A stretch of DNA of 64,000 bases from Utricularia gibba. Taxonomy: Eukaryota; Streptophyta; Magnoliopsida; Lamiales; Lentibulariaceae. The translations under genes and the position numbers were made by a program. The stretch is taken from positions 744,001 to 808,000 of the forward strand of contig NEEC01000015.1 of assembly GCA_002189035.1 (NCBI GenBank), read 5' to 3'. Positions 17,890-45,413 of this stretch are shown piece after piece. Position 1 is the stretch's first letter; each line of letters begins with the position of its first letter. The notes under the pieces were generated by a model. The model searched no databases, was not told the DNA's origin, and was given only the letters and a program-made list of their open reading frames with translations.

Positions 17890-18905
17890 CAGTTAGCAAA
17901 CACGAAACACCTATGTTGAATATAAATCTAATTCAAGTTAGATCAACTCGGCCCACTTTAAGGCCCACTGTGCCAAACGAAAATCGAAATGCAAAGGCCC
18001 AACTCACACTACGTCTTAACAAATGGGCCACATCAGGTGAGAGCCCATATTTCAACGCCAGGCGGCAGCCCATGCGCAACTTGGTCGTGAGGAATTATGT
18101 AAGAATTAAGACGAAATATTATTTTAACAATTATATTTGCGTTTGACTCTTGTACATATAAAATATTATAAGTGTTTTTCATATATTAATTATTACATGT
18201 ATAATTTATGAAGTATATTTAAAAATGAAAACAAAGCGAAGTAAAAATTCAAACGGGTATTTATGAGTATATGCTATTTTTCGATGATTTAGAAAATCTG
18301 ATTATTTGTATTTTCGCTCTCACACATTAATACAAAAAAATTGTACTAAAATCATCATTTTCTCACATATATTTAACAGATGGTCAGATTTATAAATTAC
18401 TCATTCTTTTATTATTATATTCTTTCTCATATATTATATCAATAATTATTATTTTTGTCTTTTGCTTTTAGTATTTATATTTAGCAATCTTGTATTCTCT
18501 CAATTATTTGTCATTAATTAAAATTAAAAGAAAATCAATTTACCAAATTCTGATAATAATATTATCGAAAGCAACATTCATCCACTTATTTAAGCGACTT
18601 GACTCAAAGAATGATTAAAATTACCAATGCTCCAAAGCATATTGGAACTAATCGAATTACTCTGTTCCTCTTGTAGTAGCAATACAAGTGTAGATTATTC
18701 TCAAGTCCTTTGGACTCGGATGGAAGCATCAAAAAGGCATCATCATCCTCTTCTTAGGATGGATGATGGTCGACCTTCACATCATCTACAATTAGTTTAT
18801 CAAATTCGATATTATTATGACGAAATAATTTCAATTATCTCAATTTTTTTCAGGTATCCAGGAAACATTATTTGAGAATTGTTGTATATATTGTGCTTGT
18901 TGGGC
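17890..18905 (+). repeat. Segmental repeat, copy 1 (upstream flank of a RING pair)
   Basis: This block is repeated in the same orientation at 21430-22400 and, shorter and more diverged, at 23330-24000. Shared marks in order: CCCAACTCACACTA, AACAAATGGGC, GAGCCCATATTTCAACGC, CATATAAAATATTATAAGT, TTATTTAAGnGACTT and AAAGCAnATTGGAACTAAT. Each copy is followed by an inverted RING pair, so the duplicated unit is larger than the flank alone. Confidence 0.75.
18585..18600 (+). promoter_or_regulatory. TTATTTAAG-type TATA element, copy 1
   Basis: Sequence CTTATTTAAGCGACTT, preceded by ATTCATCCA. The same block recurs left of five other RING loci, always on the + strand. The spacing and conservation suggest a core promoter reading toward the antisense arm of the pair at 18.88-20.17 kb. 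No transcript evidence is available. Confidence 0.45.
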
Positions 18906-19127
18906 TCTTGTTGGTCTTTATGAGGTGCTGGTGGTAGCTGTTTCAACATAATATTTTGTCTGAGCAATCCTCACAAATATTTTCAAAAAAGAATTTTCTT
19001 AAATGCAAAACAAAACAAAATTATAGTACCGAAATTATTGGAGCCCTATGGGGCAATTGAACACCTCCATATTCACCCATTTGTATTCAGTCATTTTTAT
19101 GATGTAAGTTTTTTATTTCATCATCCA
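18880..19127 (-). pseudogene. SINA-like RING minigene, decayed (left member of pair)
   Basis: Read on the minus strand, the start MTEYKWVNMEVFNCPI matches the + copy at 19884 (MPEYKWVNMDVFSCPI), then a stop and loss of the second zinc pair follow. The TATA at 19131-19141 (CTATATAAGA on the minus strand) and the GCTCCTCCAA block upstream are those of the other copies. The second exon is not recognisable. It stands head to head with the next copy, with about 750 bp between start codons. Confidence 0.65.
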
Positions 19128-19883
19128 TCTTCTTATATAGCGTTGGAGGAGCAGAATCTATGTGTTTTTAATGTTATGGATAAATATTATATTTTAGATT
19201 TATATTTTATGATAATATTTGTGTAGAATTTTGGTATTCTAAAAAAAATCATTAAAGTTCATGGTCCAAGTCCCAAAATGAGTGAAACCCATTTTCCAAA
19301 TATAGATCTTACGTAATTTGTATCTCTTTTGTGTGTGTGTGTTTTTTTTTTTTGTTAAATTCCCTTCTTTGGGGTGAGGAAGATTAAAATTCAAATATGG
19401 GATATCTAGGGATGAAAACTAAGCCCAAGTTCATGGGCCGGTCCGAGCCGGTTCTAGGAAGTATTGGGCTTAGACCTGATCCAAATTTCATTGGGCTTTT
19501 GGCCGAGACCGGCCCAAATTCCATCCATAGTGATATCATTCCGTACCCATCCCTTCACTGCCTTCCTTGCCCTTGAATATTCAAAATTGATATTGCAATA
19601 TTTTTCTAAATTTTTGTGCTATGTGGCAGTAAATTTTGTAATGTACACAATATTGATATTCATTTTTCAAAAATTGTTAGCACATCATAGTGAATTTTGT
19701 AATATGCCTGTTTAAAGTGTAATTACATGAATTTTTATAGAATTATTATCATATGACGGTGCATTTTGTATGTGCTGGAATTAAAGTGTAGCGTTGTTTG
19801 CAAATCACACCTTTTGGTAGTATAGATTTTGCTCCTCCACCACTATATAAGTTGGTGATGAAATCAAAACTTACATATTAAAA

Positions 19884-20168
19884 ATGCCCGAATACAAGTG
19901 GGTGAATATGGATGTCTTCAGCTGCCCTATCTGCCGAAGTGGCCCAATGAGGGCTCCTATCTTTACGGTAGTATTCTTTTTTTTTTTTTTTTTTGAAAAA
20001 TTCTTATTAAAAAACATGGATACTCATGCCCAGTGCAGCGAAGGCCACGTCGTCTGCAACGTGTGCGCATCAAAACTACATCGAAGACCACATCAAATCC
20101 AATTTCGGGTCAGGCTGGCCCATGCCACCTCCCGGATGCCACGTCAGATGAAACGAATGTTCAGTTAA
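19884..20168 (+). pseudogene. SINA-like RING minigene, partial RING
   Basis: TATA CACTATATAAG at 19841-19851, ATG at 19884. Exon 1 is 19884-19967 (28 codons: FSCPICRSGPMRAPIF) and exon 2 is 20034-20168, starting CSEGHVVCNVC, after a T-rich intron. The first Cys pair, the GH and the third Cys pair are present, but the final CxxC is replaced by HRRPHQIQF. The RING cannot be complete. The 72-codon frame itself is open, so it could still be expressed. No SINA/TRAF domain follows. Confidence 0.65.
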
Positions 20169-20419
20169 ATGCAAAGGCCCAGCCCGGTTCATAGAGATCG
20201 TAACAAATGGGCCAGGCCGTACGCACACCCAAATTCCAAAGCCAGATCCAATTCCATATTGCAGTCAACCAATAGGGATGAAAGTTGGGTCCTTACTCGC
20301 CACTTTGACCCTAATTCAAAAGACTTTCGCCAAGTTTCGGGTTTGGATCCGGCTGAAACCGAATTATATATAATAATGATTAATATGTTCTTAATTTGAT
20401 TATACAATGAGTTGGACTG

Positions 20420-21290
20420 GCCCAACGACATAAATTAATAAAACATTTTATAAAATTATTAAAACTAATATACAAATTAATATTATTTAAATAATTTATA
20501 GAAACTAATTTAACATTATTATATGATTCATTAATACGGTGCAAAACACTAACCAAATTTGGCCACACAAATCATTAGTGTTTCACGTATCTTAATTATT
20601 ACATGATATTACATGTATTATTTCACCTATATATTTAAATTCTTAAATAAAGAAGAGTAAAATTGCAAACAAGGGAATGCATCATTACTACGACACAATA
20701 TCTCTTATGTTACTTTCATCACAAATTAAATAGTTGGAGTTTGACGATGACATCTCAAGTTATAATCAACATAAAAAATTTAATTTTCAAGTTTCAAAAT
20801 TGCATTACACTTACTTTAACTCTTTTTTTTTTCAAACAGTTTGTCCATGAACATATAAAATTACGTATTTGACCTTCCATATTTCCAAAAGTTTGACCTC
20901 TAATATTATTATAACGGTATATCATTATAAATAATATCTACAAATATCATGATTATTACCCTTATGCTTTTACTCTTGTCAAACTTAAAAAATGACAATA
21001 CGCGAATGTGATATAATCCTAACAATGGATTTTTATTTGTCGAATTTCATATGTGAAAAACCTTATTATGAATTTTTTTAGATGTAAATCAAAAGGGGCT
21101 CATGCTTGGGTATTCTCTGAATTATTTTGAAAAATTAAAGTGTGTTTTTCGAAATTGTGAAACTTGGGGATTCCAATATTTATATTGATTGAAATTTAAA
21201 GTGTTGCTTTTGCACTTTTCACTAAATTTAAAATAAAGAAGATTATATGCTTTTGCTTATGTTATATGCATGACTCTATAACAGTGAAAT
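20420..21290. other. Intergenic, very AT-rich
   Basis: No ORF with recognisable content, no inverted pair seen. It links copy 1 and copy 2 of the segmental repeat. Confidence 0.5.
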
Positions 21291-21429
21291 CCCAAATTGC
21301 AATGCTAGATCCAGTTCCAACTCGGCCCAGCTCATGCCCAACTCAATCGTGAGATGAAAATCATAGTACCAAATACTATTGTAACCATTCTAGAATTTAT
21401 GCAACACAATAACGCCATCCTTTAAATCA

Positions 21430-22400
21430 GTTAATAAACACGGAACACCTTAGTCGAATACAAATCCAATTCAAGTTTGATCAACCCAGCCCAATTTAAA
21501 CTCTATAACACGTTGCCCCTGCTTTGTATCAAATGAGACCCAAATACAATGGCCCAACTCACACTATACATCTTAAAAATGGGCTAACTCAGTTGCGAGC
21601 CCATATTTCAACGCAAGATCCAGTTCCAACTCGGCCCAGCTCATGCCCAACTCAGTCGTGAGGAATTACATAAGACCAAATATTATTTTAACGATTTTAT
21701 TTTCGTTTGACTGCTTTACATATAAAATATTATAAGTATTTCTCATATGTTAATTATTACATGTATAATTTATGAAATATATTTAAAAATTTAAAACAAA
21801 GCAGAGTAAAAATTCCAACGAGTATTTTATGATTACACATTATTTTTTCGGTGTTTTAGAAATATGATTATTTGGATTTTATTTCTCACACATGAATAAA
21901 AAAAAATTACATTAAATGTCCAATTTTCGCACACATATTATAGTTGGTCAGATTTATAAACATCTCATTCTTTTAATATTATATTTGTAATTCTTTTTTT
22001 TTTTTGTACTTTTGCTTCTGGTAGTTATATTTCGCAATCATATATTCTCTCAAGTATATTTCATTAATTAAAATTAAAAAAAAATCAATTTACAAACTTC
22101 TAATAATAATATTATCGAAAGAAACATTCATCCGCTTATTTAAGGGACTTGAGTGATAGGATGATTAAAATCACTCATGTTCCAAAGCACATTGGAACTA
22201 ATTGAATTACTTTGTTACTCTTGTAGTAGCAATGCAACGTCCTTTGGACCCAGAGGGAAGCAGAAAAATGCATCATCTATAATCAATTTATATTGATATT
22301 ATTATGATGAATTAATTTCAATTATCTCAATTTATGTGAGAAATGAATTTTCAGGTATATTATTATTATGCAATCCTGGAACAATCAATGTTATGGATAA
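21430..22400 (+). repeat. Segmental repeat, copy 2
   Basis: Direct copy of 17890-18905 at a distance of about 3.5 kb, with many substitutions and small indels by eye. It carries its own GAGCCCATATTTCAACGC, CATATAAAATATTATAAGT and TTATTTAAGGGACTT blocks and runs into the inverted RING pair at 22468-22856. Confidence 0.75.
22135..22150 (+). promoter_or_regulatory. TTATTTAAG-type TATA element, copy 2
   Basis: CTTATTTAAGGGACTT, about 320 bp left of the inverted pair at 22468-22856. That pair has a 23-nt loop with no room for an internal promoter, so this is the only promoter-like site seen for it. Confidence 0.45.
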
Positions 22401-22652
22401 ATATTCATAGTTTACGGTTTCAGTCACATGCTCCAGGTTCCGGGTCGCACCAGAGTCGTGTCGACAAAGTGGGCACCTCAGAAATTTGTGTGAGCATACA
22501 ACGTGTCCTTCGTACACTGGGCACGAGTATCCATATTTTTAAATAAGAATTGGTGTTTAATACAAAACAAAACAAAAATATAGTAGCGAAATTAATTCTT
22601 GTACTTCTTGTGAGGCCCTGGCAGCAGCATAGGGGACAGTTGAATACCTTTG
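22332..22652 (-). pseudogene. SINA-like RING minigene, broken (left arm)
   Basis: On the minus strand exon 1 reads VFNCPLCCCQGLTRST and exon 2 YEGHVVCSHKFLRCPLC. The third Cys pair is reduced (CSHK instead of CxxC) and no start codon or TATA remains inside the 23-nt loop. It is a relic kept mainly as one arm of the hairpin. Confidence 0.7.
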
Positions 22653-22856
22653 TATCGCAACAGAGATTGATGAATACAGAGGTGTTCAACTGCCCTATTT
22701 GCTGCTGCCAGGGCCTTACAAGAAGTACAAGAATTGATTTCGCAACTGTATAGTTTATTTTGGGTTTAACAAAATTCTTATTTAAAAATACGGATACTTG
22801 TGTCCACTGTACGGAGGATCACGTTGTCTGTACACAAAAATTATTGAGATGCCAAC
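22468..22856. repeat. RING-derived inverted repeat (hairpin), arms about 185 bp, loop 23 nt
   Basis: Left arm 22468-22652 and right arm 22676-22856 are reverse complements with scattered mismatches and small indels. The right arm encodes MNTEVFNCPICCCQGLTRST (RING exon 1), then intron-like sequence, then a broken exon 2. The left arm, read on the minus strand, encodes the same FNCPLCCCQGLTRST, and further left YEGHVVCSHKFLRCPLCRHD (exon 2, to 22332). Both protein readings are broken. A + transcript would fold into a hairpin of about 390 nt. Confidence 0.85.
22676..22856 (+). pseudogene. SINA-like RING minigene, broken (right arm)
   Basis: MNTEVFNCPICCCQGL opens exon 1. The exon 2 part is degraded (TVYGGSRCLYTK-like) and lacks a readable second half. 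No own promoter. Confidence 0.65.
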
Positions 22857-22904
22857 ACAAATTAAATTAGATTAATATCTGTTGTTTATTCAAAAAAATG
22901 AATG

Positions 22905-23310
22905 CTACATATTATATATATCTTTATCACCTCCCCCACTCTCTCTCTTACTTTTATCAAATATTGATAAAAATATATTAATTAAATAATATGTAAAAAA
23001 GTAATACCTTCATATCAAGTTCAAATAAATTAAATTTATTTTATCATAATCTCATTAGCTAAAAACTCTTGGAACTTAAATATGTATTGTAAGTGTGGGA
23101 TTGGCCAGGCCAGCCTGACCTGAAATTGGATTTGAATCCAAGAGTTTTTAGTTAATGACATTGAACTTAAATAAAATTAATGTGAAGGTATTAATTGTTT
23201 ACGTATTCTTTAATTAATAGAATTTTTATCAATATTTGATGAAGTAAGAGAGAGAGATAGAGAGAGTAGGGGAGATGATAAAAATATATATAATATTTAG
23301 TATTCAATTT
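22905..23310. mobile_element. Palindromic MITE-like element, about 400 bp
   Basis: Two arms of about 170 bp are inverted around 23100. Left: ATGCTACATATTATATATATC... CTCTCTCTCTTACTT.TATCAAATATTGATAAAAAT. Right: the reverse complement, ending near ATATATATAATATTTAGTATTC. The shared AAACTCTTGGAA / TTnnAAGAGTTTTTAG lies near the middle. The centre (GGCCAGCCTGACCTGAAATTGGATTTGA) resembles sequence just after the RING copy at 20090-20130. No coding capacity. I infer a non-autonomous element from its shape; target duplications were not established. Confidence 0.6.
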
Positions 23311-23329
23311 TGTAATAAAAGACCAGTTG

Positions 23330-24000
23330 GGCTTTAAACTCTACAACGCCATCCCCCTGGACTGTGCCCAATGAAAATAATCCCCGTTATATATGAAGAC
23401 CGGACTCAACACATAAGCATCTTGACAAACGGGGCGGGTCAGTGCAAACCCAAATTGCAGCGCCAGATCCAGTTAACTCGGCCCAGCCCATGCCCGAGTT
23501 CGACTGTTGCACAAATAAAATACCTTTAGAATTTATGCAAAATAATTACATCCATAATGCTGATATATTATAAATATTTTTCATATATTAATTAATTATG
23601 AAATATATTTACGGATTTATAAAAAATAAAAATAAAAAGTCAACTGGATATTTACGATTAGCTATGCTTTTGCATTTAGTGATTACAATTCGTAACTCTA
23701 TATTCTTTCTATTACATATGTTTTTTGTCATTAATTGAAATTAAAAGAAAATCAATTACCAAATTTGATAATAATATTATTGAAAGAGATATTCATCCAT
23801 TTATTTAAATGAATTTGTTCCTCTTGTAAATTCACAATCCTTTTGTACTCGGTGGGCAGCACCAAGGGCATCATCATCGTTTCTACCATGGCATCATCTG
23901 CAGTCACTTTACAGAGTTTGATATTATTATGGTGAAGTAATTTCAATTATCTCAATTTATAATAGAAATGAATTTCCAGGTATATTATTATCATCATTTG
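23330..24000 (+). repeat. Segmental repeat, copy 3 (shortened)
   Basis: It shares with copies 1 and 2 the CGGCCCAGCCCATGCCC block, TTCATATATTAATTA, GATAATAATATTATTGAAAG and TTTCAATTATCTCAATTTAT. It leads into the inverted pair at 24031-24275. Confidence 0.65.
23800..23812 (+). promoter_or_regulatory. TTATTTAAA-type TATA element, copy 3
   Basis: TTTATTTAAATGA after ATTCATCCA. This is the most diverged of the six copies, since the GACTT part is changed. About 220 bp left of the 24031-24275 inverted pair. Confidence 0.35.
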
Positions 24001-24030
24001 AACATTATGAGTGTTAATCAGGTGAATACT

Positions 24031-24275
24031 TTTTGTGAGCACTGCATACAGACTACCCGTCCTTCGATACACGTCCACGAGTATAGATATTTCTCAATGA
24101 GAATCTTAATTAATACGAAACAAAATAAATGATACTTTTTACGGAAATGATGGTGGCCAACCATTTGTGTAATATATTTTTGTTTTGTATATAATAAATT
24201 CTCATATAAAAATATCAATACTTGTTGGGGTGTATCGTGGGACGCGTAGTATGTATGCAATGCTTGCTCACAAAA
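24031..24275. repeat. RING-derived inverted repeat (hairpin), arms about 98 bp, loop about 49 nt
   Basis: Left arm 24031-24128 pairs with right arm 24178-24275. The left arm on the minus strand reads SWTCIEGRVVCMQCSQK, the start of RING exon 2 (H changed to R). The right arm has the equivalent frame (CIVGRVVCMQCLLTK). Exon 1 is absent from both, so neither can encode a RING. The TTTTGTATATAATAAATTCT block is repeated once more directly at about 24285-24335. Confidence 0.8.
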
Positions 24276-24339
24276 GGTAATTTAATTTTGTTTTGTATAT
24301 AATAAATTCTTATATAAAAATATTAATACATACTGTTTT

Positions 24340-25430
24340 TTGTTTAATATACAAACAAATTAAAATATTTAGTGTTATAAATGATCAAATGACAATGTAG
24401 TATTTGGGGTGTGAAAAATTGATTTAATGTGCAAGATAGAAAAATACGATTATCTGATATGTAAATGATTTGATTTATCTTAATTTTATTTTTTCATTTA
24501 AATAAATTGAATAGATTCTTTACATCAAATTAAATTGTTAATATTTTTACATATTATCTAAAAACTATTTTCATTAATTAATAAAATTCAGAATATGATA
24601 TTTGATTTTAATTAAATCTTTATCCTATCTACATATATATTATTTAGACTATCATATCTAAAATATGCCCCCAATATGGTTTTAGTTCAATAAATGTGAT
24701 ATATATTACTTATTCTAGAGTTTGTATTATCACAAAGAAAGTCCACTCTTGGCCTCCTGAATAACAATTCAATTCTATCCGATAACATTGAAAGAGATGA
24801 AGCCATGTTTGTATATGGGGTACAAAAAGGGGGTCATGGTCTGTGAGATCTGTTCGCTCAAATTATCAAGATCCCCAACCTAATTGTCTATCATTATTGA
24901 TACTAAGATCGGACGTGTATTGCCCATTATACCCTTTATTGCATCAAAACCCTAAGGCAATTTTATTTATTTAATCGAAGTAGAAGGATTTTTTTGTCTT
25001 ATTATTATAAACAGAGATTAATGTTACATTATCTTAGTGGGGTTCTTCTTCCAGTGTAGATTGAGGGCATAGTGGGCATCTTCTGTGTAAATTAATATCT
25101 TTATTCTAAATATATAAGTTTAGATAATTATTTTACTTTTTATAAATAGGTTCAACCCAAAACAAAATTGAATCAAACAACCAACTGAGCCGGTTTTAAA
25201 GACACCGCCGTAGGTCTACTTTAAAATTGCATAGAGTCGTTCCCCATAGCACACGCAAAGCCCACATTAATACCCATCTTAAAATTCAAATGCAGAATGG
25301 TATCTCCTAATATGTTAGATTTTTATAATCAACGAACAACTCTTTTTATTTACTGTCATAAAGTTGCACATATAAAATAAAGTATAAATTACATCAATAA
25401 TGTATATATATTATCATTGTTTGTAATGCA
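24340..25430. other. Intergenic, AT-rich
   Basis: No recognisable gene or structured repeat apart from simple AT-rich sequence. 25140-25300 carries another piece of the CCCACATTAATACCCATC-type flank found near other RING copies. Confidence 0.45.
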
Positions 25431-25439
25431 TAATAATTA

Positions 25440-26231
25440 TTATGCTGAATTAAAGTAAAATTACAAAGTACGTATTACAATTTTTTCTAGAATTATTAGC
25501 ACAACATTATGAGTTCTGTAATATGAATGATTAAATTGTAATGTTGTTCAAAAAGCATTAACTTTTCATAATATAGATTTTGCAACTCCAACACTATATA
25601 AGAAGCTAGGGTGATGCGAATTGCAATTAAACCTTGTATCATAAATGGCGGAAAATGAAAGCTATATTATGACGGGAGAATTATTCAACTGCCCGATTTG
25701 ATGCGAGGGCCCCATGAGGGAGGCCATCTTCTCGTTAAGAGATTTATATTTTTTATTTAGCACAATTATGAACTAATAATTTTTATTTTGAAAGTGTGGC
25801 GAGAGCTACATACTATGTGATGCCTCCTCACTCTCGCAGTTAGACCTCAAAGTAATAATGTATGGATATTATTGAAATCTTAGAGAACAAAATCACGGAA
25901 TTCAAGACAACGGCAGTGATGAGGTGGCCCTAGGACAACAACATGGTACAATGGAAACCTATTTTAAAGTGATGCAGGGTAGAACTAACTTAGCTGGAGA
26001 GTATTCTGTAGGCTACGGAACACAACCACTTGGAAGGTCCAAGCATCCGAATCAATACCAGGTAAGGCGGCGTTTTGAGGACCTTCCAGGTGCTCGTATT
26101 CCGTACCCTACAGAATACTCTCCAGCTCAGTTTGTTCGACCTCACATAACTTCAAAATAGGTTTCCATTGTACTAGGTTGTTGTTGCTATGGCCACCTCA
26201 CCAGTGCCGTCGTCTTGAATTCCATGATTCT
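25440..26231. repeat. RING-derived inverted repeat, right arm interrupted by a retrotransposon
   Basis: Left arm 25440-26041 and right arm 26075-26231 face each other across a loop of about 33 nt. The pairing is plain (left CAATGGAAACCTATTTTAAAG, right reverse complement CAATGGAAACCTATTTTGAAG; left GGAGAGTATTCTGTAGG, right the same). At 26231 the right arm meets the 5' LTR. Beyond the 3' LTR, 32588-32800 continues the same arm, pairing with about 25640 down to 25440. Some 245 bp of arm, the RING coding part, is missing at the 3' junction. Confidence 0.8.
25645..25872 (+). pseudogene. SINA-like RING minigene with nonsense codon
   Basis: Family TATA (ACACTATATAAGAAGCTAGGGTGATG) at 25591-25616, ATG at 25645. 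Exon 1 reads MAENESYIMTGELFNCPI, then TGA where the second zinc-binding Cys should be, then CEGPMREAIFS. Exon 2 from about 25797 reads CGESYILCDASSLSQ, with the GH and the last Cys pairs gone. It cannot make a RING. It is the sense arm of a larger inverted repeat. Confidence 0.7.
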
Positions 26232-26802
26232 TGATGAGATCATGGATGCTACTGATTATTCCAATGAAGACAAAGGACACAAGATCAATAATTTTCCATT
26301 GATTTCAGTTGGGCCAATCAATAGATCAAGAGCAAGAAGGAATCAAGAAGTGCTTAAGACCTTATGGGCCAATCACCCAAGCTATGAGATTTTTGGGATG
26401 GAATTCAACATTATCAAAGTGGATCAACTTGATTAGAGAAGGCCTATTACGACCAAATACATTATTATGACTACTTTGCCTCCAATAAGGCCCAATCCTT
26501 CAACTATATAAGAAGGGCCTTACTCTTGTTTTGGACAACTTTAATTGTAATCACTTTTGAGAGCAAATTCTCCTTCCTTGAGTTCTTGTACAACTTAGAC
26601 TTATCAAGCCTTGCTTGTGGTGTCTAGTGTGTGGTTTATCACTCCCAATTTCTTCCTTAATTCTGTGAGTGTGGTACAATTTCATAGTTTGGGTTGCAAG
26701 GATCTTTCAATCCTTGAGGGCCAACTTCTTTTTCTTGACGGATTGTTTCTTTTCAACCAAGATCTGGTTTGCCAATCACTTGTTGATTGGAGGGTCGTAT
26801 CA
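26232..26802 (+). repeat. 5' LTR, 571 bp
   Basis: It begins TGATGAGATC and ends GGGTCGTATCA, so has TG...CA ends. It has a TATA box (CAACTATATAAGAAGG near 26500). Its first 205 bases include a copy of the last 68 codons of the pol frame (to 26436), because pol runs into the 3' LTR. Confidence 0.9.
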
Positions 26803-26804
26803 GG

Positions 26805-26817
26805 TGGTATCAGAGCC
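26805..26817 (+). other. Primer-binding site, initiator Met tRNA
   Basis: TGGTATCAGAGCC, two bases after the LTR end, is complementary to the 3' end of plant initiator tRNA-Met, the usual primer for such elements. Confidence 0.9.
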
Positions 26818-27513
26818 AATCTTTCTCTTCTTCATCTCTTATTTATCTTGTTTTTGTTTCGTTCTTAGAAAGAAAAAAAAAACCAGAAACTAGTCCAGAT
26901 CTATATTGATTTGGTTATCTTGTCTTTTGCTCATCTCTTCTTCTGAAAAGAAGAACCAAGGGGGGTTTCTTATCTTTGTTTCTTCCATCCTTTTCTTCTG
27001 GATTGCTGCAAAAAAAAAAAAAAACGTGTTGAAGGGAGAAAGAAAGTTAGTAGCTGAATTTTCAACTTTTCACACATAAGAAAAGTCAAAAAAAGAAGTT
27101 AGTCATTTGAATCCATTGAATCTTCTCTTTACCAAAAAAAAAGAAAAGTCAATATTGTACAACTTTGTCTATTGTCCTACTTCTATTTCATTTTAACTCT
27201 TTTCAATTGTCTACCTACCTCTTTTGGTGTTAATCACAAAAAGTTACACTCTATCTTTCCATTCCTACTCTTACTTAACCATTATTACTATTACCATCAC
27301 CAAGTCTTATATTGTTCGCTTTCTTTATCCCATTCATTACTCTAGCCACCCTTATCTCTTTAAACCACACTTAGATGGATTTTTTAAGGTTTATTGAGTC
27401 TTAAAGTTCAAGAGGACTTGAGGTTTGGAAATTCTTTCTTTCTTCATTTACTTCTATCTTTCTGTCGTTGTACTCTTTCCTTCTTTTTGTCTACACTTTT
27501 CTCTTGTAGTAGG

Positions 27514-32574: not shown

Positions 32575-32587
32575 TTACACCATTTTG

Positions 32588-34040: not shown

Positions 34041-34099
34041 AAAAAGTCAAAAAAGTCAGAATGCTTGAAAGATGCCCTAATTGCCATCTTTGGCCATTG

Positions 34100-34933: not shown

Positions 34934-35100
34934 CGTTACATAACACAAGCCAATATATTAAATCTCTTTGCTTCTCCAGGGTATATCATTATTATACATG
35001 ATGTTGCCATATACTTTACATTTTATTATGATAAATTCTTGGTTTAACTAAATGATTCTTATAACATAATAAAATACATAGAGTAATTAATCTAATGATA

Positions 35101-35534: not shown

Positions 35535-35705
35535 ATTAGATTAATTCTTGTATGATTACTATATGTATTTTATCTGACCGCGTAAGTTAAACACAATAAT
35601 TTTCAATTTCTTTTTCTTTCATCAATTAGTATTATAAAATTATAATAATTTCCATGTAATAATTATTAATCTTGTTTTTGTTTATTAGGACGGCCCCGAG
35701 GCGCC

Positions 35706-35950
35706 TTTGTCTGTCCTCTATGATGTGCTCCATGTCACGGCACCTACAAGACAGTGGCCCACAACATTGTGGGCATCTTTCAAGTTTGTGGCCTTCCGCA
35801 CACTTCCACAAACATACATATTCTTTCTGGAAGTGTCCGGAAGCCCACATTGTGTGTGACGCCACAAACTGGAAAGATACCCACACTGTTGTGGGCTACT
35901 GTACTGCACGTGCCGCCACGTAGAGCACCTCATACAGGACAGGCAGACGG
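35706..35950. repeat. RING-derived inverted repeat (hairpin), arms about 105-120 bp, loop about 19 nt
   Basis: Left arm 35706-35808 and right arm 35828-35950. The right arm has an extra 17 nt (about 35844-35860). The left arm on the minus strand reads LWKCAEGHKLERCPQCCGPL, then SCRCRDMEH, a RING exon 2 lacking its middle Cys pair. The right arm on + reads FWKCPEAHIVCDATNWKD, which keeps the piece the left arm has lost. The size and tiny loop resemble young plant MIRNA precursors. Confidence 0.85.
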
Positions 35951-35959
35951 GTCATTTAG

Positions 35960-37070
35960 AAAAATGGACATCTTTCCCACCTATATTATAACATTTTTGA
36001 AATCTATTTTTATTTTTCAAAATTACTTTTAAAAAGTAGAAATAAAAAGTAAAATTAACTAACTCCTTACTTTTCCAAAAATAATTTTTGTAGTTATAAT
36101 TTTAAAAGTGTTTTTGATAAAATTACTTTTCGAATTAAAAGTTATTCTAGAACAAAAATATTTTTATTTTTGAAAAATATAAATAAATTTTAAAAATTTT
36201 ACAGAACACTGTTTAATTCAAAATTTTTACACATAAGTTTACCACTTTTCTACAGTGACTACTTTTCTAAATCACTCCACGACAGACACGCTGCGGCAAA
36301 ATGCGCCTCGCGACCCTCCTAATAAACAAAAACAAGACTGATAGTTTTATATTTATTATATTAAATTAATATATTTTGCAAGGCACCCCCGGCCCATCGA
36401 CCTAGTGTTTGTTTAAAAGAATATTTTATAAAATAAATTATTTAATTTTTAAATATTGATTTTAATCAACTAATTAATATAAATAAATAAATTAGTATAA
36501 TTCTCATTGTCTATAAAACATGTAATGTGATTAATCAAAAATTAATTAAAATCATCCAAAGACAAAAAGTATAAAAAATATTTATAGATAAATATTTAAT
36601 TTTTTATTTAAAAAATATGAAAACAAGACTGGTCAATTTTCTACATTGCATTTTATGGTCCTAAGCCCAATCAATACTGAGCATATGGGTGTCGGGCCGA
36701 AAAGCCCTATAGATTCTAGAATCGGGCCAGATCAGCCCATAGATTCGACCTAAACTTTCATTTATACTAGCCATCCATCGTATTTGAAATCAGATGTATT
36801 GACCGTTGTACTCTTTATCAAAACCCTAGTGCAATCCTTATCTCAGTTGAAGGATTTTTTTGTCCATCCTCAACAGGTATTTAAACCGACCTAATCAGTA
36901 AAATTAATGTTTATGATTATTTATATACTACCTTTTCTGATATTGTTCCTTTTGTATTATAAAAATATTTTTTTGATATTTTTACAGTCAAATATTCTCT
37001 GGATTTTCAATTGAATGCAAAAGATGATTCATTTACCTAACTTTGAGAATAGTATTTTAGAAAGAAGAAT
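35960..37070. other. Intergenic, AT-rich
   Basis: No gene recognised. 36650-36900 holds GGGCCGAAAAGCCC-type and AAAACCCTAGTGCAATC blocks that recur near other RING loci (for example 24945, 37760 and 43905), part of the duplicated flank. Confidence 0.45.
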
Positions 37071-37076
37071 TCATCT

Positions 37077-37093
37077 ACTTATTTAAGATATTC
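37077..37093 (+). promoter_or_regulatory. TTATTTAAG-type TATA element, copy 5
   Basis: CTACTTATTTAAGATATTC after AGAATTCATC. It lies left of the degenerate palindrome (37330-37560) and of the intact minus-strand RING gene (37895-38278). Confidence 0.4.
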
Positions 37094-37329
37094 GTTTCAT
37101 AATATAATGCATGTCAATCTATCAAATGTCCTTGCGGATCATCCTCTTTCAAGGGTTGGCATCATCTTCTTTCAATTAGCTGAATTTCTGGTGGAGATTA
37201 ACGGTTATTATGCAAGAATGTGCCATTATTGTGCATTTTATTATGATAATTTCTTGATTCAACTAAATGACTCTAATAACATGATAAAATGCAAACAGTA
37301 ATTAATCTAATAAATAGGTTATTCAAATC

Positions 37330-37560
37330 GGGCGGGCCCGGGAGAAGGGGCATGGAGCGGGGTTTTTTTTAAAAAAAATATCCACTATGTTTTGATTATA
37401 TTAGAAATTTAACTATTCTACGTGTATTTTTTTGTGCTTAATGTATGAAAGAAATGAACAGTGAGTATTTTTTAAAAACACCCATGGAGCGGGTCATCCC
37501 AGTCAACCCCTTCCCAGGAAGACTTTTCTCATATTCCTCCTCCTCCATCAGATTAATTTT
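37330..37560. repeat. Degenerate small palindrome in RING flank
   Basis: CATGGAGCGGGGTTTTTTTT...ATATCCACT at 37358-37386 is inverted at about 37455-37495 (CAGTGAGTATTTTTTAAAAA...CCATGGAGCGGG). Sequence around 37500-37550 (GGAAGACTTTTCTCATATTC, then CTCCTCCTCC) resembles the end of the hairpin right arm at 35480-35520. A decayed relative of that hairpin. Confidence 0.55.
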
Positions 37561-37894
37561 TGCATAATTAATTACTCAATTAGTATAAAAAATGATCACA
37601 CAAATATTAACCTTACCGCCTAAGTTAAAACATAATTTTCAATTTCTTTTTCTTTCTTCAATTAGTATTTTAAAATTATAAGAATTTCCATAATCCCTCA
37701 CACAATCCAATCAAAAATGATACTTTATACCATCCTATTTGTTGCCCATTCTACCCTCCATGAAAACCCTATTGCATCATATCTGAATGGGTATCATTCT
37801 CATCCGGTTTATACGGATTTATGTTATGATAATTAACTAATTTTATTTACCACTGAAAATTAAATTCTCAGGTATATTATTTTACAAATACGAC

Positions 37895-38278
37895 TTAATC
37901 ATTCTTTTGTTTGTCGGTGTCGGGGACTGGGGGAGGAGCCGGATCTCCATCTCCATCTCCCTCGAGAATAGACCGAAATATCTTTTCCAGGTCTGAACAC
38001 CTGCAACAGATTGGTCCCTTACAGATTGGGCATTCCGCCAATTTGTGGAAGCATGGCTCACACACAATAATCTCTCCTTCTCCGCACTGCATTCAATTTA
38101 TTTTTTTTCTTAAAAATAAATATTGGTAATTAAAACAACAAATAAAATAAAACCAAAAAAAGGTTACCGAGAAGATGGGCCCTCTGATGGGGCCGACACC
38201 GCACGCCGAGCAATTAAAGAGGTGGGCAGGGACATAACATAGCTTCTTTTTCTCCATCTTGTTCATACGAGTTTTCAT
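37895..38278 (-). CDS. SINA-like RING-only minigene, intact frame (100 aa)
   Basis: Two exons, 38168-38278 and 37895-38086, with GT-AG intron, 100 aa. Exon 1 ends GPIRGPIFS; exon 2 starts CGEGEIIVCEPC and continues HKLAECPICKGPICCRCSDL. Spacing matches the RING of plant SINA-like ubiquitin ligases (CPxC...IF.C..GH..C..C...L..CP.C...CR), but there is no second zinc finger or TRAF-like domain; the tail is acidic and Pro-rich (GDGDGDPAPPPVPD). The usual zinc-binding His is Glu here (GEGE), so one zinc site is probably weakened. The family TATA lies at 38291-38302. I cannot say whether it is translated. Confidence 0.7.
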
Positions 38279-38459
38279 TTCACCAACAACTTATTATATA
38301 TCGATGGAGGACCAAAATCTATGTTACGAAAATATGTGATTTACGGACAGGATTACGCTTTAATTAAGAACGCGCTATCATATTATAATAATTCTCGAAA
38401 ATGACATTGCGATATTAACGGTGCGTATTGTAAAGTCAGGGGTCTGATTATGATATACT

Positions 38460-39702
38460 ACATTAATTACAGATGAAGGAATTGATGTGGTTAAATAGAG
38501 AGATATTTTGAATCTTTTACTAAGGACTTTTTCTTAAAAAATAATAACGTACAACTATAAAGATTTGATTTTTGAATTAAATAATATCATATAAAATAAG
38601 TATGAATCATTATGTTGATATCAGACTAAAATCTGGGTGTGTATCAATAGTGGGACAACAGAGAGAATTAAGTCTATGAGTATATTTCAATTATCACACA
38701 TTGATTATAGATCGGTACGTGATTAATGAGTAAAAATTTTACTAATCTTATATGAGACATTTTCTAAAAAAGATAAAAAAAAACGTAAAATCATGAGGGT
38801 TGAATGGTCAATACACATAATATTGTGAAAAGTAATTGTAGTTGGTGACATGCATGGTGCAATATGTATCAATTTTGATTATTGGAGGGCAAAGACCCCC
38901 ACCCCCTATTCCTTACCTCGGGCGAAGGCCCATAAAGAGGAGCCGGTCCAGGAAACGTATGGGCTTGTTCCATGGTGAACCCATTCCCCGGCCCAAAGCT
39001 TGAGATGAGACACCTCTTTGTAGAATAGAATGCATGATAATTTTTTTTATAATTTTTTAGAAATGTATTTAAAATTATAACATGGAAAGAGAATTAATGC
39101 AGCTCATGTCCCGATTATGCAATTTAAACAACAACCATTTTTATGTATTAAAAAATAATCATTATTGATTTTTCAGAATTGTACAAAAGGTAGTCCTAAC
39201 TGCCACGAACAAATCCGTACGGGTAAAAACCTAAAACAGCGGCCTGTCGCCCCCCGGATTCGCATTCTGGGGATGGACGAAGATGCCACCCCACCCACCC
39301 AAGAAACGACACCGTTTCTGGAAGCATCGATGGCGGAGGACGACGACACTGTTGGTTACAGTTCATTTACCCATGATATGATGATTCTTCGGCAAATGGT
39401 TTGGCGTATTTGTGTAATTAAGAAGATGTTGGGAGGGTAATTCCTTGAGGAAGTTCCGAATTCCCCTGCAACTTGCGCACCCCACTTGCTCGAAACCGCC
39501 TGACAATGGAAAAGCGAGGGCGAGAAACGCAGAAAAATCTTCATGATGTTTGCTCTGCAACTATTCGGAGATATTTTCTCTTCTGCCGGTTCGTATACTT
39601 TGTCTGTTCTTCGTGAATCGCTCATAGGATTCATCGACTGTTTTCTTGTAGACGCTTTTCCCCAGGTTCCTCGGCCACAAATAAAGAAGAAGAAGCATAA
39701 GA
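38460..39702. other. Intergenic, upstream of the PYL gene
   Basis: AT-rich to about 39150, then balanced composition. The 39650-39702 part is leader of the PYL gene. A 91-codon ORF at 39165-39440 has no recognisable domain. Confidence 0.5.
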
Positions 39703-40376
39703 ATGCCGTCTTCTCTGCAGATTCAGAGGATTAGCTCCAGGAGCCCTCGCTTCACGGACCGCCTGGATCTCATGTGGGTTTCTCCGATTTCCCCTGAAAT
39801 TCCCCTGCCGGATGATGTTCGCCGCCGTCACACTCACCTGGTACTGTCTGATTTCGTTTTGATTGATTTCCGCCTCATACGGGTAACCCTTTCTTAATCA
39901 TGTGCCGTTTCTAGGTAATGGAAAACCAGTGCTGCTCCGCGGTGGTGCAGGCGATCGATGCCCCTATCGAGATCGTGTGGTCCTTGGTGCGACGATTCGA
40001 CAACCCACAAGCGTACAAGCATTTTCTCAAAAGTTGCCGAGTGGTTCACGGCGGCGGGGAGGTGGGTACTGTAAGGGAGGTGACGGTCGTCTCCGGGTTG
40101 CCGGCGGGGAGGAGCACGGAGAAGCTGGAGATTCTGGATGATGAGAAGCATGTGATGAGTTTCAGAGTCGTCGGCGGCGATCACCGTCTCCGGAACTACC
40201 GGTCCATCACGACACTCCATGCGGCGGGAGCGGCCGCGACGGTGGTGGTGGAGTCGTATGAGGTGGATGTGCCGGAAGGGAATACGGTAGAGGAGACTCG
40301 TGCCTTTGCGGATACGATCGTGAGATGCAATTTGCAGTCGCTTGCTCAGATCTCTAGAAGTTTGCTCACAAATTGA
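39703..40376 (+). CDS. Abscisic acid receptor, PYL4/5/6 type
   Basis: Exons 39703-39840 and 39915-40376 give 199 aa. Members bind ABA in a START-fold pocket and then inhibit clade A PP2C phosphatases, in cytosol and nucleus. The start MPSSLQIQR and the HTH motif before CCSAVVQ are those of the PYL4-6 group. AYKHF carries the ABA-binding Lys (about K81), SGLPA (106-110) is the gate and HRL (136-138) the latch. [22 protein letters not shown] is the C-terminal helix. The 74-bp intron (39841-39914) lies between HTHL and V; without it the frame runs into a stop, and the joined sequence matches the family. This clade is mostly intronless as I recall. Arabidopsis match: PYL6, At2g40330. Confidence 0.93.
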
Positions 40377-41278
40377 ATTTTCAATATATATATATTTTTT
40401 TGCCAGGCTGTTTAATCCTCATTATCGCATTAAATAGCCGCTTAATACTTCAAAAACAAAAAAAACTAAAAGCATTTTCCTTTCTAATTAAAGGCATTAT
40501 GTTAATAAAAAAAATTTTATTATCTAAATTCTTTCTTCAAAATGAGAAGTATTTTTGTTGAGGAGGCAAATGCCCAACAGTCATCATAAAGCCTTCCATC
40601 AAAATGGACCAGGTCGCAAATTAGGGTAAAGCCCAGTTCGAACAAGTACGAATATTTATACGTTTTTTATATTATATATAAAATAACCATTATCAGATCA
40701 AAATGGGCTGGGCCACCGATGAAAAAGAGTGATCAGCGTGGCCCAATACGCAAATTTTCAATTTCTGTTTTTTCGGTAAATTATTATTATAATTTGATAT
40801 CAATTTGGATCGATTCCGGCAACAATACAATGAAAAAAGCATTAGTGCAACTTGTTTTAGTATGATTTTCTTGGTTAAATTCATGAATTTTTTTATAATG
40901 AATTAAAAAAATATAAATCTTATATTTAATTAATTTTTTTATAATGAAATACAATTTGCTTCTCAACAATAAAAATGAAATAATGTTTGAGAAGAAACTT
41001 GTAGTAATGAGTTTCTGGTTTTCTTTAAAAAAAAAACTAAAATATTAATTATAATAATTCAAAAATAAAGAATAAATTGTGGTTTTTATTTATTTTGTAG
41101 GCAACCCTTGTGCTGGGCACAGAAAACACAACCTACCATCAATGTTTTTTAAAGCAACTATGTAAATGGGGCCGTGAGAATCAAAAAATGCACCAAGTAT
41201 TAACTATTGCCAATACCTAGCTGCCACTAACACGTACGTACGGGTAAAACACAGGTTCGGGTCGGGTCGGCCGACATC
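40377..41278. other. Intergenic, AT-rich
   Basis: No recognisable gene. The GTGCTGGGCACAG patch near 41110 and the rest look like decayed non-coding DNA. Confidence 0.45.
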
Positions 41279-41662
41279 TCAGGTTCCGCCGCCGTGCGTT
41301 CTCGCAGGAGTGAGCAACCAGTCATGAGAATAAGCTCTAGAACAAGGCGTCACCTTAAAAAAAAACATCGCTACCATAAATCTCATCAGGCAAAGATATA
41401 TCAGGAGGATATTCTTTCTTCTTGCGTATTGCCATCTCTTTTCCTAGTTCCTCCTCCAATTCGAAATCTCCGGCGACCCCGTTCAACAGCATCTCCAACT
41501 TTCTCCTGCTCAACGATTGAGAAGACCAAGGAGCCATCAAATCTCCAGCTCTTTTCCCCTTCGAATACAAAACATCATCATTACCGACGATGACCATGAA
41601 CCGCCGCCGTCGACGCAGTGAAGGGGGGTGGCGCCGCCGGAGCCGGAAGCTCTGTTGACATC
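41279..41662 (-). pseudogene. Truncated copy of the CCCH/ankyrin zinc-finger gene
   Basis: It aligns, same orientation, with 46362-46822 inside the intact CCCH gene 5 kb away. Shared runs include CCATCTCCAACTTTCTCCTGC-like text, GGAGCCATCAAATCTCCAGC and GAGCCGGAAGCTCT. Translated on the minus strand it keeps [22 protein letters not shown] and KKKEYPPDISLPDEIYG from the ankyrin-to-zinc-finger linker. It has an internal deletion near 41585, deletions at 41305 and 41375, and both ends missing. Nothing functional is encoded. The break ends at GTTGACATCAA, followed directly by AT-rich RING-family flank. Confidence 0.88.
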
Positions 41663-42107
41663 AATAATATATATTAATTATTATTTATTTGTCATGTGTG
41701 GTTACAAATTCTGACTCAAAGTAGGTTGAAAATTCAAATGTGTATTCATGACTACATATTATTATTATTTTTTACTTGTAGTCTATGAATTTGGAGACAG
41801 CAAAGTGGAAGCGATGTAACGTTCATTATAATTGATTCGATATTCGAAAACGTAAAAAAAAATTAATATAATGATATGTATATTATTAGAATTAAATAAA
41901 AAAATTCATATTAGATTCAGGAAAAGAAATATATTATTTAATAGATAATATCACGCTTAGAAGCATTTTAAAGGAGACCAAAAGTGGAGACCATTATGGA
42001 TTAAGAAGATTTGTAACATCATAATTATTTATTGCATGTATTTTCCATGCAAAAGAATCGATTTTATTGAAATTTGGATAATAATATTGTGGTGAGAAGG
42101 ATTCATC

Positions 42108-42125
42108 CCCTTATTTAAGTGACTT
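42108..42125 (+). promoter_or_regulatory. TTATTTAAG-type TATA element, copy 6
   Basis: CCCTTATTTAAGTGACTT after AAGGATTCATC. About 340 bp left of the 381-bp palindrome. A + transcript from here would pass through the antisense arm, spacer and sense arm. Confidence 0.45.
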
Positions 42126-42461
42126 AGCGCAAGGCATTATGGGAATTAAGAATGCACTAGAATACCATCCAGTTTGTGTCTTCTTGGGATTATTCTCAAT
42201 TCTTCTTAACACCATCCTCCTTCCAAAGGCAGGCAAGTAGATGGAGGTTCATGACGGATGATCAATTTTCTAAATGACGCTATATCATTCTCACTCAATT
42301 TTACAAAGTAGTACTATTCATTCATTCATTTTTTCTTTATTGATAAAAATATTAATTTTTTGTTGGTTTGGTGTTATTTGAAAAGCATAGGTTGGGTGTA
42401 GAAGCAATATTTGGTTCTTGTATATATTATCAAGTACACACAAATATTTGTACAATTTTTA

Positions 42462-42813
42462 CTAATCTTGTTTCTCTTTGTGGGCAGCTGGAGGACGAGA
42501 CCGCGACGTCGCCTTGGGTTCGAAGCGCGTCGTTTGGAAAAGCGCTTCGAAATGCCTGCATCTACAGCAGACGTCCTCTCCGCAGAAGGGGCATCTCCCT
42601 AACTTCTGCGAACACGGCCCACACAGAATGTGGCCGTTCATGCACTGCCAAAAAAAAAAAAAAATTAAGAACACATACACTTGATTTAATAGAAACACAG
42701 CAAAACAAACCCAAAAAACTTACGGAAAAGATGGCCCCTCTGATGGGGCCGTCACAGCAGATCGGGCAGTTGTACATCTTCATGTCAGCCTCGATTAATT
42801 TGTATTCAGCCAT
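42462..42813 (-). CDS. SINA-like RING-only minigene (90 aa), left palindrome copy
   Basis: Exons 42724-42813 and 42462-42644; the protein is identical to that of the right copy except for the stop codon (TAG). RING: YNCPICCDGPIRGAIFS | CMNGHILCGPCSQKLGRCPFC, then CRCRHFEALF, all eight zinc ligands present. No family TATA lies upstream: identity with the right copy ends at TTAAATTTCATCA, about where transcription should start. It may therefore be silent as a gene and matter only as antisense sequence. Confidence 0.6.
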
Positions 42814-42950
42814 TTACTCTCTGGTACAGTGTTAAATTTCATCAATTACTTCATTTAATATTATTATACTTTAAATTGTTTCAAGTATGAAGAATTAGGC
42901 TACATGAAAATTAACGTGATTTGGAGGGAATATGTATGTATGTATGTATA

Positions 42951-42986
<36 letters not shown>

Positions 42987-43667
42987 TGTATGTATGTATG
43001 TATGTACATGCACTTCTACACCCATCACATCACCTCATTCATGATCCTCGAATAATCAAATCGCAAATTGCATGTTACATATTTTTCTTGAATTATTATC
43101 AGAATTTTGAAATTTCCAGAAAATTGATTTTGCAAATATTTCTAAGTCATTATCAATTTTTCTAGAATTATTATAATCTCAGGTGAATTTTGTAATATGT
43201 GTAATTAAAGTGCAATGTTGTTAAAAAGCACGACTTTTTCATACTATAGATCTTACTTCTACAACTCTATATAATAAACAAGCTGGTGATGAAATTTAAC
43301 ACTGTACCAGAGAGTAAATGGCTGAATACAAATTAATCGAGGCTGACATGAAGATGTACAACTGCCCGATCTGCTGTGACGGCCCCATCAGAGGGGCCAT
43401 CTTTTCCGTAAGTTTTTTGGGTTTGTTTTGCTGTGTTTCTATTAAATCAAGTGTATGTGTTCTTAATTTTTTTTTTTTTTTGGCAGTGCATGAACGGCCA
43501 CATTCTGTGTGGGCCGTGTTCGCAGAAGTTAGGGAGATGCCCCTTCTGCGGAGAGGACGTCTGCTGTAGATGCAGGCATTTCGAAGCGCTTTTCCAAACG
43601 ACGCGCTTCGAACCCAAGGCGACGTCGCGGTCTCGTCCTCCAGCTGCCCACAAAGAGAAGCAAGATT
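42464..43667. repeat. Near-perfect palindrome, 381-bp arms, 442-bp spacer
   Basis: Left arm 42464-42844 and right arm 43287-43667 are reverse complements without net indels (paired coordinates always sum to 86131). I noticed one mismatch, near the outer end (42471). Each arm is one whole RING minigene from the predicted transcript start to the stop codon, intron included. Outside the arms similarity falls off at once: the right gene keeps the family TATA (CTATATAATA, 43267), the left does not. The spacer holds a (TATG)n microsatellite. Confidence 0.95.
42931..43010 (+). repeat. (TATG)n microsatellite
   Basis: About 80 bp of TATG repeats with a short TATATA interruption, in the spacer between the two palindrome arms. 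Confidence 0.95.
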
Positions 43668-43669
43668 AA
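43318..43669 (+). CDS. SINA-like RING-only minigene (90 aa), right palindrome copy
   Basis: Exons 43318-43407 and 43487-43669 (GT-AG, phase 0), 90 aa, start MAEYKLIEADMKMYNCPICC. It has a complete SINA-type RING at residues 15-62: CPIC, then CMNGH, CGPC, CPFC and CRCR. The second exon ends in a basic tail (ATSRSRPPAAHKEKQD). SINA-like ligases ubiquitinate proteins through a TRAF-like substrate domain, which is absent here, so substrate binding is unknown; a decoy or RNA role is equally possible. Promoter: family block GAATTTTGTAATATG...TATAGATC, TATA at 43267, ATG about 50 bp on. The exon organisation agrees with the intact copy at 37895-38278. Confidence 0.75.
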
Positions 43670-45413
43670 ATATTGTATAATTATACAAAATAATTTATTA
43701 TACTTTATTGTAAAGAAGGTGAATTAGCGATGGTGTTAAGAATTAAGGAGCCCCAGCCCATCACAATTTTCAATTTCTGTTTTATCGGGAAATTAATATT
43801 ATAAATTGATATCAATTAAATCAATCCAACGAAAACCAGAAAGATGAATAACACAATCCACTCAATCCTGGCCCTCCATTACCGCGAGATGTTTCCCTCA
43901 ATGAAAATCCTAGTGCAACTATACCTACTTCATGTGAGTCCAAGGCCTCGACGAGTGTTTTAAAATAATGGGTTTTTTTTTATGAATTCAATTTAACAAT
44001 TTTTATATAAATCGAAAAATTATTTAAAAAAATTAAAAATATTACATTTAATTAATCTTATAATTTGCTTCACCACAATTATTTCGTCTTGTTATGAAAA
44101 TATGAAATATGAATAAAAGGAAATAGTTGGCGAAAAGAAAATTGTTCTAATCAGATTCTGTGAGCAATATTTTAAAAACGTGTTCAATTCATGATTTGAA
44201 TTAGTGATCCCTACGGTTAAATTGGATTCCTTAATTTTTTATTATATACAATAAAAATAATTGTTTAGACAAACCGTTATTTTAAAATATGGACGGCTGT
44301 AGTCGTTAACTTTCTAGTCATAGAATGGTAGTGGATCATTGATACGAACCCAATTTCACGTTCGGCCCGATCCACCTAAAGAAGGCCCACCGTAAAATCC
44401 ATAGAGCCGTTGGATGACGTAATTATGGGATGAGCCCTTCCTTTGCATAAACCCCGTCTGCCACTTGAATACGGATTGATGTACGTGCATAGTCGATACT
44501 TGTGATTAGAACACGCAAAAACAAATTCAAAAATTTTGGTGAACTGAAAATCCCAAGGAAAATTGAGAATACTCAGATATGCCAAATAAATTGATCTAAT
44601 TAAAAATGAATGAACAAATGTAACAAACATCAATATAACAATATTATTCATTTTAGATATTTAATTTTCATTGTTTTATATTTGGTATTTTCAATTTTCA
44701 TCCTCAAATTACTCTAGATTAAATATATTTAATTTTGAAATTCCTATCAATAACTTTTCACCATACTCAGAAAATAGATCTCTGCATAGTCATTTTATTC
44801 AATTTTATCATTTCTCATACATGAATTCACTTAGACCATCCTTTCTCGTGCAGGGCATCGGATTCGAAGCATGAATGATTGAGGCCTAGTTCGATATTTC
44901 TATAAATAAGTTTAAACAATGTAGAACCAAAATTAGTTTTTTTATTAAATAATAAATCTCACATTCTAATAAATCATGGAGAGGAGGAAGCTTCCAACTG
45001 CCAATTCATGGGATAACCCTAATAATGTACACGTGTTTAGTATTAGGATGGCAGGCTGGACCCCACCTAAGTAAACATGTCGACACATTAGATGACATTA
45101 AAATCTAATTAAAAAGTGAGAATTAATTAGTATTTAAGTGTAATTATTATAGATGAGAAGATAATAGTGAGAAAATAAGGAATATGAATAAATGGAATAA
45201 TTTTTTAAAAGAAGATTTTAGTAATCGAATTTATATCGTGGCTGCTTTCTAAAAACAATAATTCAATGAGAAAAAATAAATCAGCTTGGAGGTGGCGCGG
45301 CCGGTTAGTTCCCGGGATGACGGCGGAGGCCATGATGATCTGCTTACGCGGCTGCTTCCGCCGCTCTATTTACATTTCTCGACGTGCCACCATGTTATCA
45401 AGGGGGGTCTCCT
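43670..45413. other. Intergenic, AT-rich
   Basis: 43740-43930 again carries flank text seen at other RING loci (CAATTTCTGTTTTATCGG, as at 40755; AAAATCCTAGTGCAA). 45260-45413 is GC-richer and includes the 3' end of the CCCH gene. No gene recognised. Confidence 0.45.

Follow-up and report, generated by a model that had tools for sequence, protein, structure and literature searches.

Why do inverted copies of a small RING gene recur within one region of the Utricularia gibba genome, and might they be a source of hairpin RNA? The question was raised by an earlier, sequence-only reading of the 64 kb analysed here (C412:744001–808000, hereafter the window; the assembly comprises 100 Mb in 516 contigs), which described a family of inverted pairs of a two-exon, SINA-like RING sequence at 17890–43670 and proposed that they may act as hairpin RNAs or may form a foldback transposon. 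We noted that seven of the eight hairpins lie downstream of a conserved, promoter-like block, D1, with a core that a genome search located nowhere else, and that one hairpin is built from a different, identifiable gene, a cystatin. Both observations strengthen the hairpin-RNA idea, and we give close to an even chance to the cluster being a set of promoter-driven long-hairpin RNA loci resembling the soybean I locus.

Inverted repeats and the D1 block

A self-BLAST scan of the minus strand (E ≤ 1e-9, with under 2 kb between arms) returned eight inverted repeats in the window, all within 18.98–43.68 kb, confirming the presence of inverted pairs inside the interval reported earlier. They lie at 18977–19161/19822–20017 (unit 1, 18.9 kb), 22469–22856 (22.5 kb), 22885–23319 (22.9 kb), 24027–24279 (24.0 kb), 25891–26229 (25.9 kb), 35033–35602 (35.0 kb), 35708–35945 (35.7 kb) and 42444–42844/43287–43684 (42 kb). 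The stems comprise 88–250 aligned nucleotides (nt), or 398 at 42 kb, and are 78–99% paired. These near-contiguous inverted gene copies are able to form long double-stranded RNA stems. All eight folded better than their shuffled versions (10 shuffles each); the 22.5-kb hairpin reached −243 kcal/mol with a z-score of −25 (100 shuffles), and the 35.0-kb hairpin a z-score of −15 (20 shuffles).

The same eight repeats were returned from contig C87, which aligns with window positions 13017–29241 and 33100–51218 at 98.7–99.7%, lacks 29242–33099, and is taken to be a second haplotype of the cluster. The same scan found none in six 8-kb regions that surround true SINA genes, or in C412:734–744 kb. It gave one RING-derived repeat in C412:808–858 kb (50 kb), another in 16 kb of C317, and three in 20 kb of C316, two of them RING-derived and the third bracketing a RING minigene (C316:19295–19579/20651–20961, L037 and L038, with the minigene unit between its arms). 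Within the sequence sampled, the inverted repeats fall at the minigene family, which counts in favour of hairpin-RNA loci; since the scanned regions were picked around the RING minigene family and the SINA genes, these counts are a comparison and not a genome-wide rate.

D1 is a TATA-containing block of ∼60 nt, distinct from the minigene's own promoter, that is present in six copies, all on the + strand: 18538–18597 (unit 1), 22088–22147 (unit 2), 23753–23812 (unit 3), 34872–34931 (unit 4), 37031–37090 (unit 5) and 42063–42122 (unit 6). The block contains TTATTTAA and ends in the TATA-like TTATTTAAG of unit 1 or a near variant, with the ATTCATC motif at 18576, 22126, 23791, 34910, 37069 and 42101; a motif-free repeat search recovered the same six. 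Across the 15 unit pairs, the best ungapped identity over 60 nt averaged 0.74, compared with 0.42–0.56 for ten neighbouring 60-nt windows and 0.42 (standard deviation 0.06) for random pairs. Units 1 and 2 are the closest pair and their flanks can be partly aligned (0.48–0.88), so the D1 island is clearest among the 14 remaining pairs. Where conservation peaks, all copies agree at 22 of 40 aligned columns. Between the haplotypes D1 differs by one single-nucleotide polymorphism (SNP) over 516 nt, a number too small for a judgement.

When the whole genome was searched with the 22-nt core pattern, 77 matches were found at up to two mismatches, against 43 for the same pattern read backwards. Only 12 had at most one mismatch, and these are the six sites in each of the two haplotypes; the other 65 all have two mismatches, and the core at one mismatch or fewer was therefore not found elsewhere. 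Genome-wide searches with the units and D1, whose copy counts are lower bounds, likewise placed the units only in the cluster and its haplotig, with gene pieces elsewhere. Each of the hairpins at 18.9, 22.5, 22.9, 24.0, 35.0, 35.7 and 42 kb is on the same strand as a D1 core and 106–781 nt downstream of it; for the eighth, at 25.9 kb, the element upstream is a minigene TATA, at a distance of ∼0.3 kb. We read D1 as a core promoter with a TATA-like element, at which transcription would start.

Repeated GGCCCA-rich segments (e.g. AACTCGGCCCAGCTCATGCCC) occur at 18040–18095, 21291–21353, 21600–21662 and 23440–23495, upstream of units 1–3, and are possibly borders of a tandem duplication.

The RING minigene and the cystatin-derived hairpin

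Six of the eight inverted repeats derive from a two-exon minigene with a SINA-type RING, the assignment at 24.0 kb being weakly supported. DNA profiles made from 13 copies of promoter plus exon 1 and 10 copies of exon 2 show its anatomy: a promoter with a TATA element (about CACTATATAAG) is followed by two exons with a short intron between them. The profiles confirmed RING content at 18.9, 35.0, 35.7 and 42 kb. Many recovered copies were themselves profile seeds, so only non-seed matches are independent; the strong ones are the left arm at 18.9 kb (E 4.9e-20) and both arms at 35.7 kb (E 9e-9 and 5e-8). The 22.5-kb arms matched weakly (E 0.003–0.16), and their sense arm reads ...FNCPICC...; at 24.0 kb one arm matched at E 0.64 and the RING assignment comes from alignment to the 22.5- and 18.9-kb arms. 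The earlier assignment of the loci to the RING family fails for 25.89–26.23 kb, which is cystatin-derived.

The units differ in the parts of the minigene that they retain. In unit 1, an antisense arm with intron, exon 1 and minigene promoter (18977–19163, − strand) precedes a sense arm with minigene promoter, exon 1 (19884–19967) and exon 2 from 20034 (19655–20165, + strand). The unit 2 hairpin again runs from antisense to sense arm (22469–22856, +), and unit 3 holds a decayed hairpin of the intron/exon 2 part (24027–24279, +). Unit 4 carries two hairpins of RING exon 2 downstream of its D1 (35033–35602 and 35708–35945, both +). In unit 6, a complete 90-amino-acid, two-exon minigene in antisense (42444–42845, −) precedes a promoter and sense arm with the same minigene (43138–43684, +), the two arms being near-identical. 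Unit 5 has arm scraps that no longer pair (∼37.31–37.37 kb, by eye, and 37.48–37.69 kb), followed by a two-exon RING minigene with a 93-amino-acid frame (37904–38408, −). A second antisense copy of the minigene promoter lies at 34083–34345 (−). This promoter copy (34.08–34.35 kb), the unit at 37.04–38.41 kb, the palindrome at 22.885–23.319 kb and D1 had all been overlooked in the sequence-only reading, as had the cystatin origin of the 25.9-kb hairpin and the inverted RING pairs outside the window, which lie at two other loci.

The 22885–23319 palindrome (+), the second downstream of the unit 2 D1, follows the unit 2 hairpin and gave no RING match. Against the genome it had only weak matches of 70–105 nt, at four other places; an origin as a miniature inverted-repeat transposable element (MITE) was considered. 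At 24280–24345, C87 has ∼98 extra nt that by eye resemble another right-arm copy of the 24.0-kb hairpin.

The two 42-kb arms encode one and the same intact RING protein of 90 amino acids, which the right arm also encodes in C87. Searched by exon, exon 2 matched Pfam Sina_RING (PF21362) at 32.9 bits, above the cut-off of 29.3, identifying a SINA-type RING; the joined protein, typed with one extra residue, scored 26.6, under the cut-off. Sina_ZnF (PF21361) had nine genome matches: six are the SINA genes, three lie at other sites, and none is in the cluster. A search for protein relatives gave one candidate and none at E ≤ 0.01. Among the minigenes at 42, 38 and C412:840 kb, synonymous differences (pS) were 0.77–0.81, a saturated level, against non-synonymous differences (pN) of 0.37–0.44, from which we conclude that the family evolved under coding constraint.

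Reading frames had been described as broken in the more decayed loci. This is true of some only: exon 1 of the 25-kb copy is interrupted by a stop, and neither 35.0-kb arm has a frame free of stops, whereas the unit 1 and unit 2 sense copies (18.9 and 22.5 kb) have open exon 1 and exon 2 stretches from which only the last zinc-ligand pair is missing. The 93-amino-acid frame of the 38-kb minigene is open in the window and has a stop codon in C87, where three adjacent haplotype SNPs at 38036–38038 produce it.

Copies of the minigene elsewhere are also found in inverted pairs. At C412:844 kb and on C316, an antisense exon 2 follows a sense exon 2 (tail to tail) behind the gene's own promoter, once on C412 and twice on C316. 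Two halves of the minigene are oriented towards each other at C317:614 kb. Inverted duplication of the family thus had more than one origin or went through repeated rearrangement. Synteny between C317:606–622 kb and the window was tried and rejected: only minigene pieces and four other segments matched (about 56–315 nt), C317 open frames matched the window only in their minigene part, and C317 looks like a dispersed copy.

The 25.9-kb hairpin has a different source. Both arms of the palindrome at 25.89–26.23 kb match C412:1.397 and 1.400 Mb, the gene being 627 kb away. At 1.397 Mb, where the domain was read, a 111-amino-acid stretch from the first methionine holds a cystatin-type domain (SQAPI 7.4e-19, Cystatin 7.8e-13); 1.400 Mb is a sequence match. 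The hairpin arms, 86% alike, span the C-terminal codons of the cystatin gene and its 3′ flank, and of their 21-mers 47/177 and 67/153 lie within three mismatches of the parent gene, with a minimum of one. The hairpin (25864–26231, +) begins 35 nt past a RING minigene remnant (25444–25829, +) that has a promoter, an exon 1 with a stop inside the RING and a remnant of exon 2. No paper on cystatin in Utricularia gibba was found among open-licence papers.

The right arm of the cystatin hairpin stops where a retroelement starts. This element (26232–32574), by eye probably of Gypsy type, has direct end repeats of 409 nt that are 98% alike and two long open frames; the segment missing from C87, 29242–33099, includes its 3′ repeat. 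Beyond it lies an antisense minigene promoter (32563–32750, −), which is cut by that repeat just after the start codon, leaving only promoter and start codon at 32.6 kb. The single RING locus that had been proposed to pair 25.44–26.23 with 32.6–32.8 kb therefore resolves into the cystatin palindrome and a separate convergent pair, 25.44–25.83 (+) and 32.56–32.75 kb (−), with the retroelement between.

Stem sequences, predicted targets and the explanations weighed

Among the six RING stems, every one of the 12 arms had the opposite arm of its own locus as top-scoring partner, with a small margin in unit 1 (91 vs 87). Arms of units 1 and 2 are 74–81% alike within units and 61–70% between them. 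Because they are closer within than between units despite flanks that are 77% alike, the arms were either homogenised within units after duplication or formed by separate inversions.

If the cluster does produce hairpin RNA, a small SINA-type, RING-only gene (two exons, ∼90 amino acids, its own TATA promoter) would have undergone head-to-head duplication next to D1, an unrelated block, and D1 and the inverted pair would together have been copied in tandem to give six units. A transcript started at D1 would run through the antisense copy and then the sense copy as a long hairpin RNA, which Dicer-like enzymes could cut into small interfering RNAs (siRNAs) against RING-minigene mRNAs. At 25.9 kb, the minigene promoter would drive the inverted cystatin fragment, and the predicted siRNAs would target the cystatin genes at C412:1.397 and 1.400 Mb.

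Sequence matches offer predicted targets for part of the cluster. Besides the cystatin arms, the 42-kb arm has 21/362 21-mers within three mismatches of the 38-kb gene (minimum one) and 24/362 within three mismatches of the C412:844-kb copy (minimum two). Targets with siRNA-grade matches were thus found for the 25.9- and 42-kb hairpins and hardly for units 1–4. Full SINA genes, the targets suggested earlier, were rejected for the 42-kb arm: across six 8-kb loci (the SINA-like genes on C496 and C4 lie outside these), the best 21-nt matches had 3–5 mismatches, the level of shuffles (20 each; minima 3–4, means ∼4.9–5.2).

Several results weigh against hairpin-RNA loci. G:U pairs did not exceed A:C pairs in the stems (69 vs 59, p = 0.43; summed over 11 of the 12 stems, without the near-identical one at 42 kb), and selection on stem pairing, as judged by this excess, was rejected. 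The 22.5- and 24.0-kb units alone gave 16 vs 3, a post hoc choice; the counts were 4 vs 8 at 25.9 kb and 7 vs 10 at 35.0 kb. Haplotype SNPs were not sparser in the RING arms (6 in 2,596 nt, 2.3/kb) than overall (72 in 34,344 nt, 2.1/kb, a rate to which part of the retroelement and a poorly aligned segment around 24.3 kb contribute). The open sense arms of units 1 and 2 mean that pairing is not clearly separable from coding, and the arms of units 1–4 have only 0–5 21-mers within three mismatches of the surviving minigenes per arm–gene pair. Unit 5 has lost its pairing, leaving arm scraps, and has a well-conserved D1. A scan of the window at Rfam gathering thresholds gave no matches, hence no known microRNA (miRNA) family, although a young MIRNA gene need not match one. 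The earlier hairpin-RNA idea therefore gains from D1 and the cystatin hairpin and loses on two tests of stem sequence; it is partly supported, and the observation behind it is partly confirmed.

Much of this would be expected of neutral wreckage, in which a tandem array of a small RING gene family rearranges rapidly and goes on producing inverted copies, its arms are alike through arm-to-arm gene conversion or recency, and D1 is what remains of a promoter or regulatory element, kept for other reasons. Stems with no wobble excess, arms with no reduction in SNP density, a unit 5 that keeps D1 but no hairpin, haplotypes that differ in copy number at C316/C412:84x kb, and inverted copies in several orientations all fit this account, which we regard as quite possible, if on the improbable side. 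It does not readily explain why a 60-nt D1 island is kept in six of six units while most flanks are at background, always on one strand and upstream of the arms. Neither that island nor the persistent self-complementarity is explained if the locus is protein-coding, with the 42-kb pair as two divergent, intact RING-only genes, the other copies as shortened proteins or pseudogenes, and D1 serving an unrelated transcript. The intact 42-kb protein, the excess of pS over pN and the open exons of units 1 and 2 speak for coding, and the stops in both 35.0-kb arms and in the other haplotype of the 38-kb gene speak against it; we consider this account unlikely.

The palindromic anatomy and long arms would also suit a foldback or MITE-like transposon carrying a captured RING gene, much as proposed earlier, yet no inverted repeat among the eight has a direct repeat at its ends above chance (shared words of 4–6 nt, null P 0.12–0.83, in a crude test). 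By eye the termini share no common sequence, and the units are clustered in tandem; beyond the cluster and its haplotig, the genome searches, which give lower bounds, found no more than pieces of genes. Such an origin is very improbable. A bolder reading would make D1 a reusable cassette, in which selection keeps the promoter and the self-complementarity while the stem turns over quickly, giving new silencing RNAs first against the cluster's own diverging RING paralogues and then, through the minigene promoter, against a foreign gene for a cystatin-type protease inhibitor. This reading we hold to be unlikely.

Comparison with known systems

The closest parallel is the soybean I locus, an inverted CHS1-3-4 cluster whose siRNAs silence CHS7/8. 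There, a neighbouring foreign promoter, that of a subtilisin gene, is reported to read into anti-CHS1 (PMC6418295; PMC3804491). The Utricularia gibba cluster likewise has inverted copies of a gene family, with D1 as a candidate promoter that would read into the antisense copy. It differs in having six tandem promoter-linked units and a tiny RING-only family, and its siRNAs are predicted ones. In Arabidopsis, the long hairpin precursors of the endogenous inverted repeats IR71 and IR2039 are expected to feed several Dicer-like enzymes; we know of no D1-like shared promoter family, or repeated origin from one gene family, in those loci.

Hairpins made of inverted protein-gene fragments with an identifiable source, here the cystatin and the RING minigene, also recall the Allen-type inverted-duplication model for young MIRNA genes (PMC3237417). 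Unlike such genes, the cluster has long stems (88–398 aligned nt); with no Rfam match and no single duplex definable, this makes it less MIRNA-like. The minigene shares the SINA-type RING of SINA/SIAH RING E3 ligases and lacks the SINA zinc finger that follows it there. Among open-licence papers, none naming 'SINA-like' was present in the matches listed for SINA-like hairpins, and the matches listed for inverted repeat, siRNA and RING in Utricularia gibba held no title on such a locus.

To our knowledge, inverted-repeat silencing loci are mostly known as single cases. Here, six promoter-linked units, decayed to different degrees, share one small region with a hairpin from a second gene, with inverted copies at two other places and two haplotypes to compare, so that the gain of a promoter by a hairpin, the keeping of its pairing and the change of its target become directly testable.

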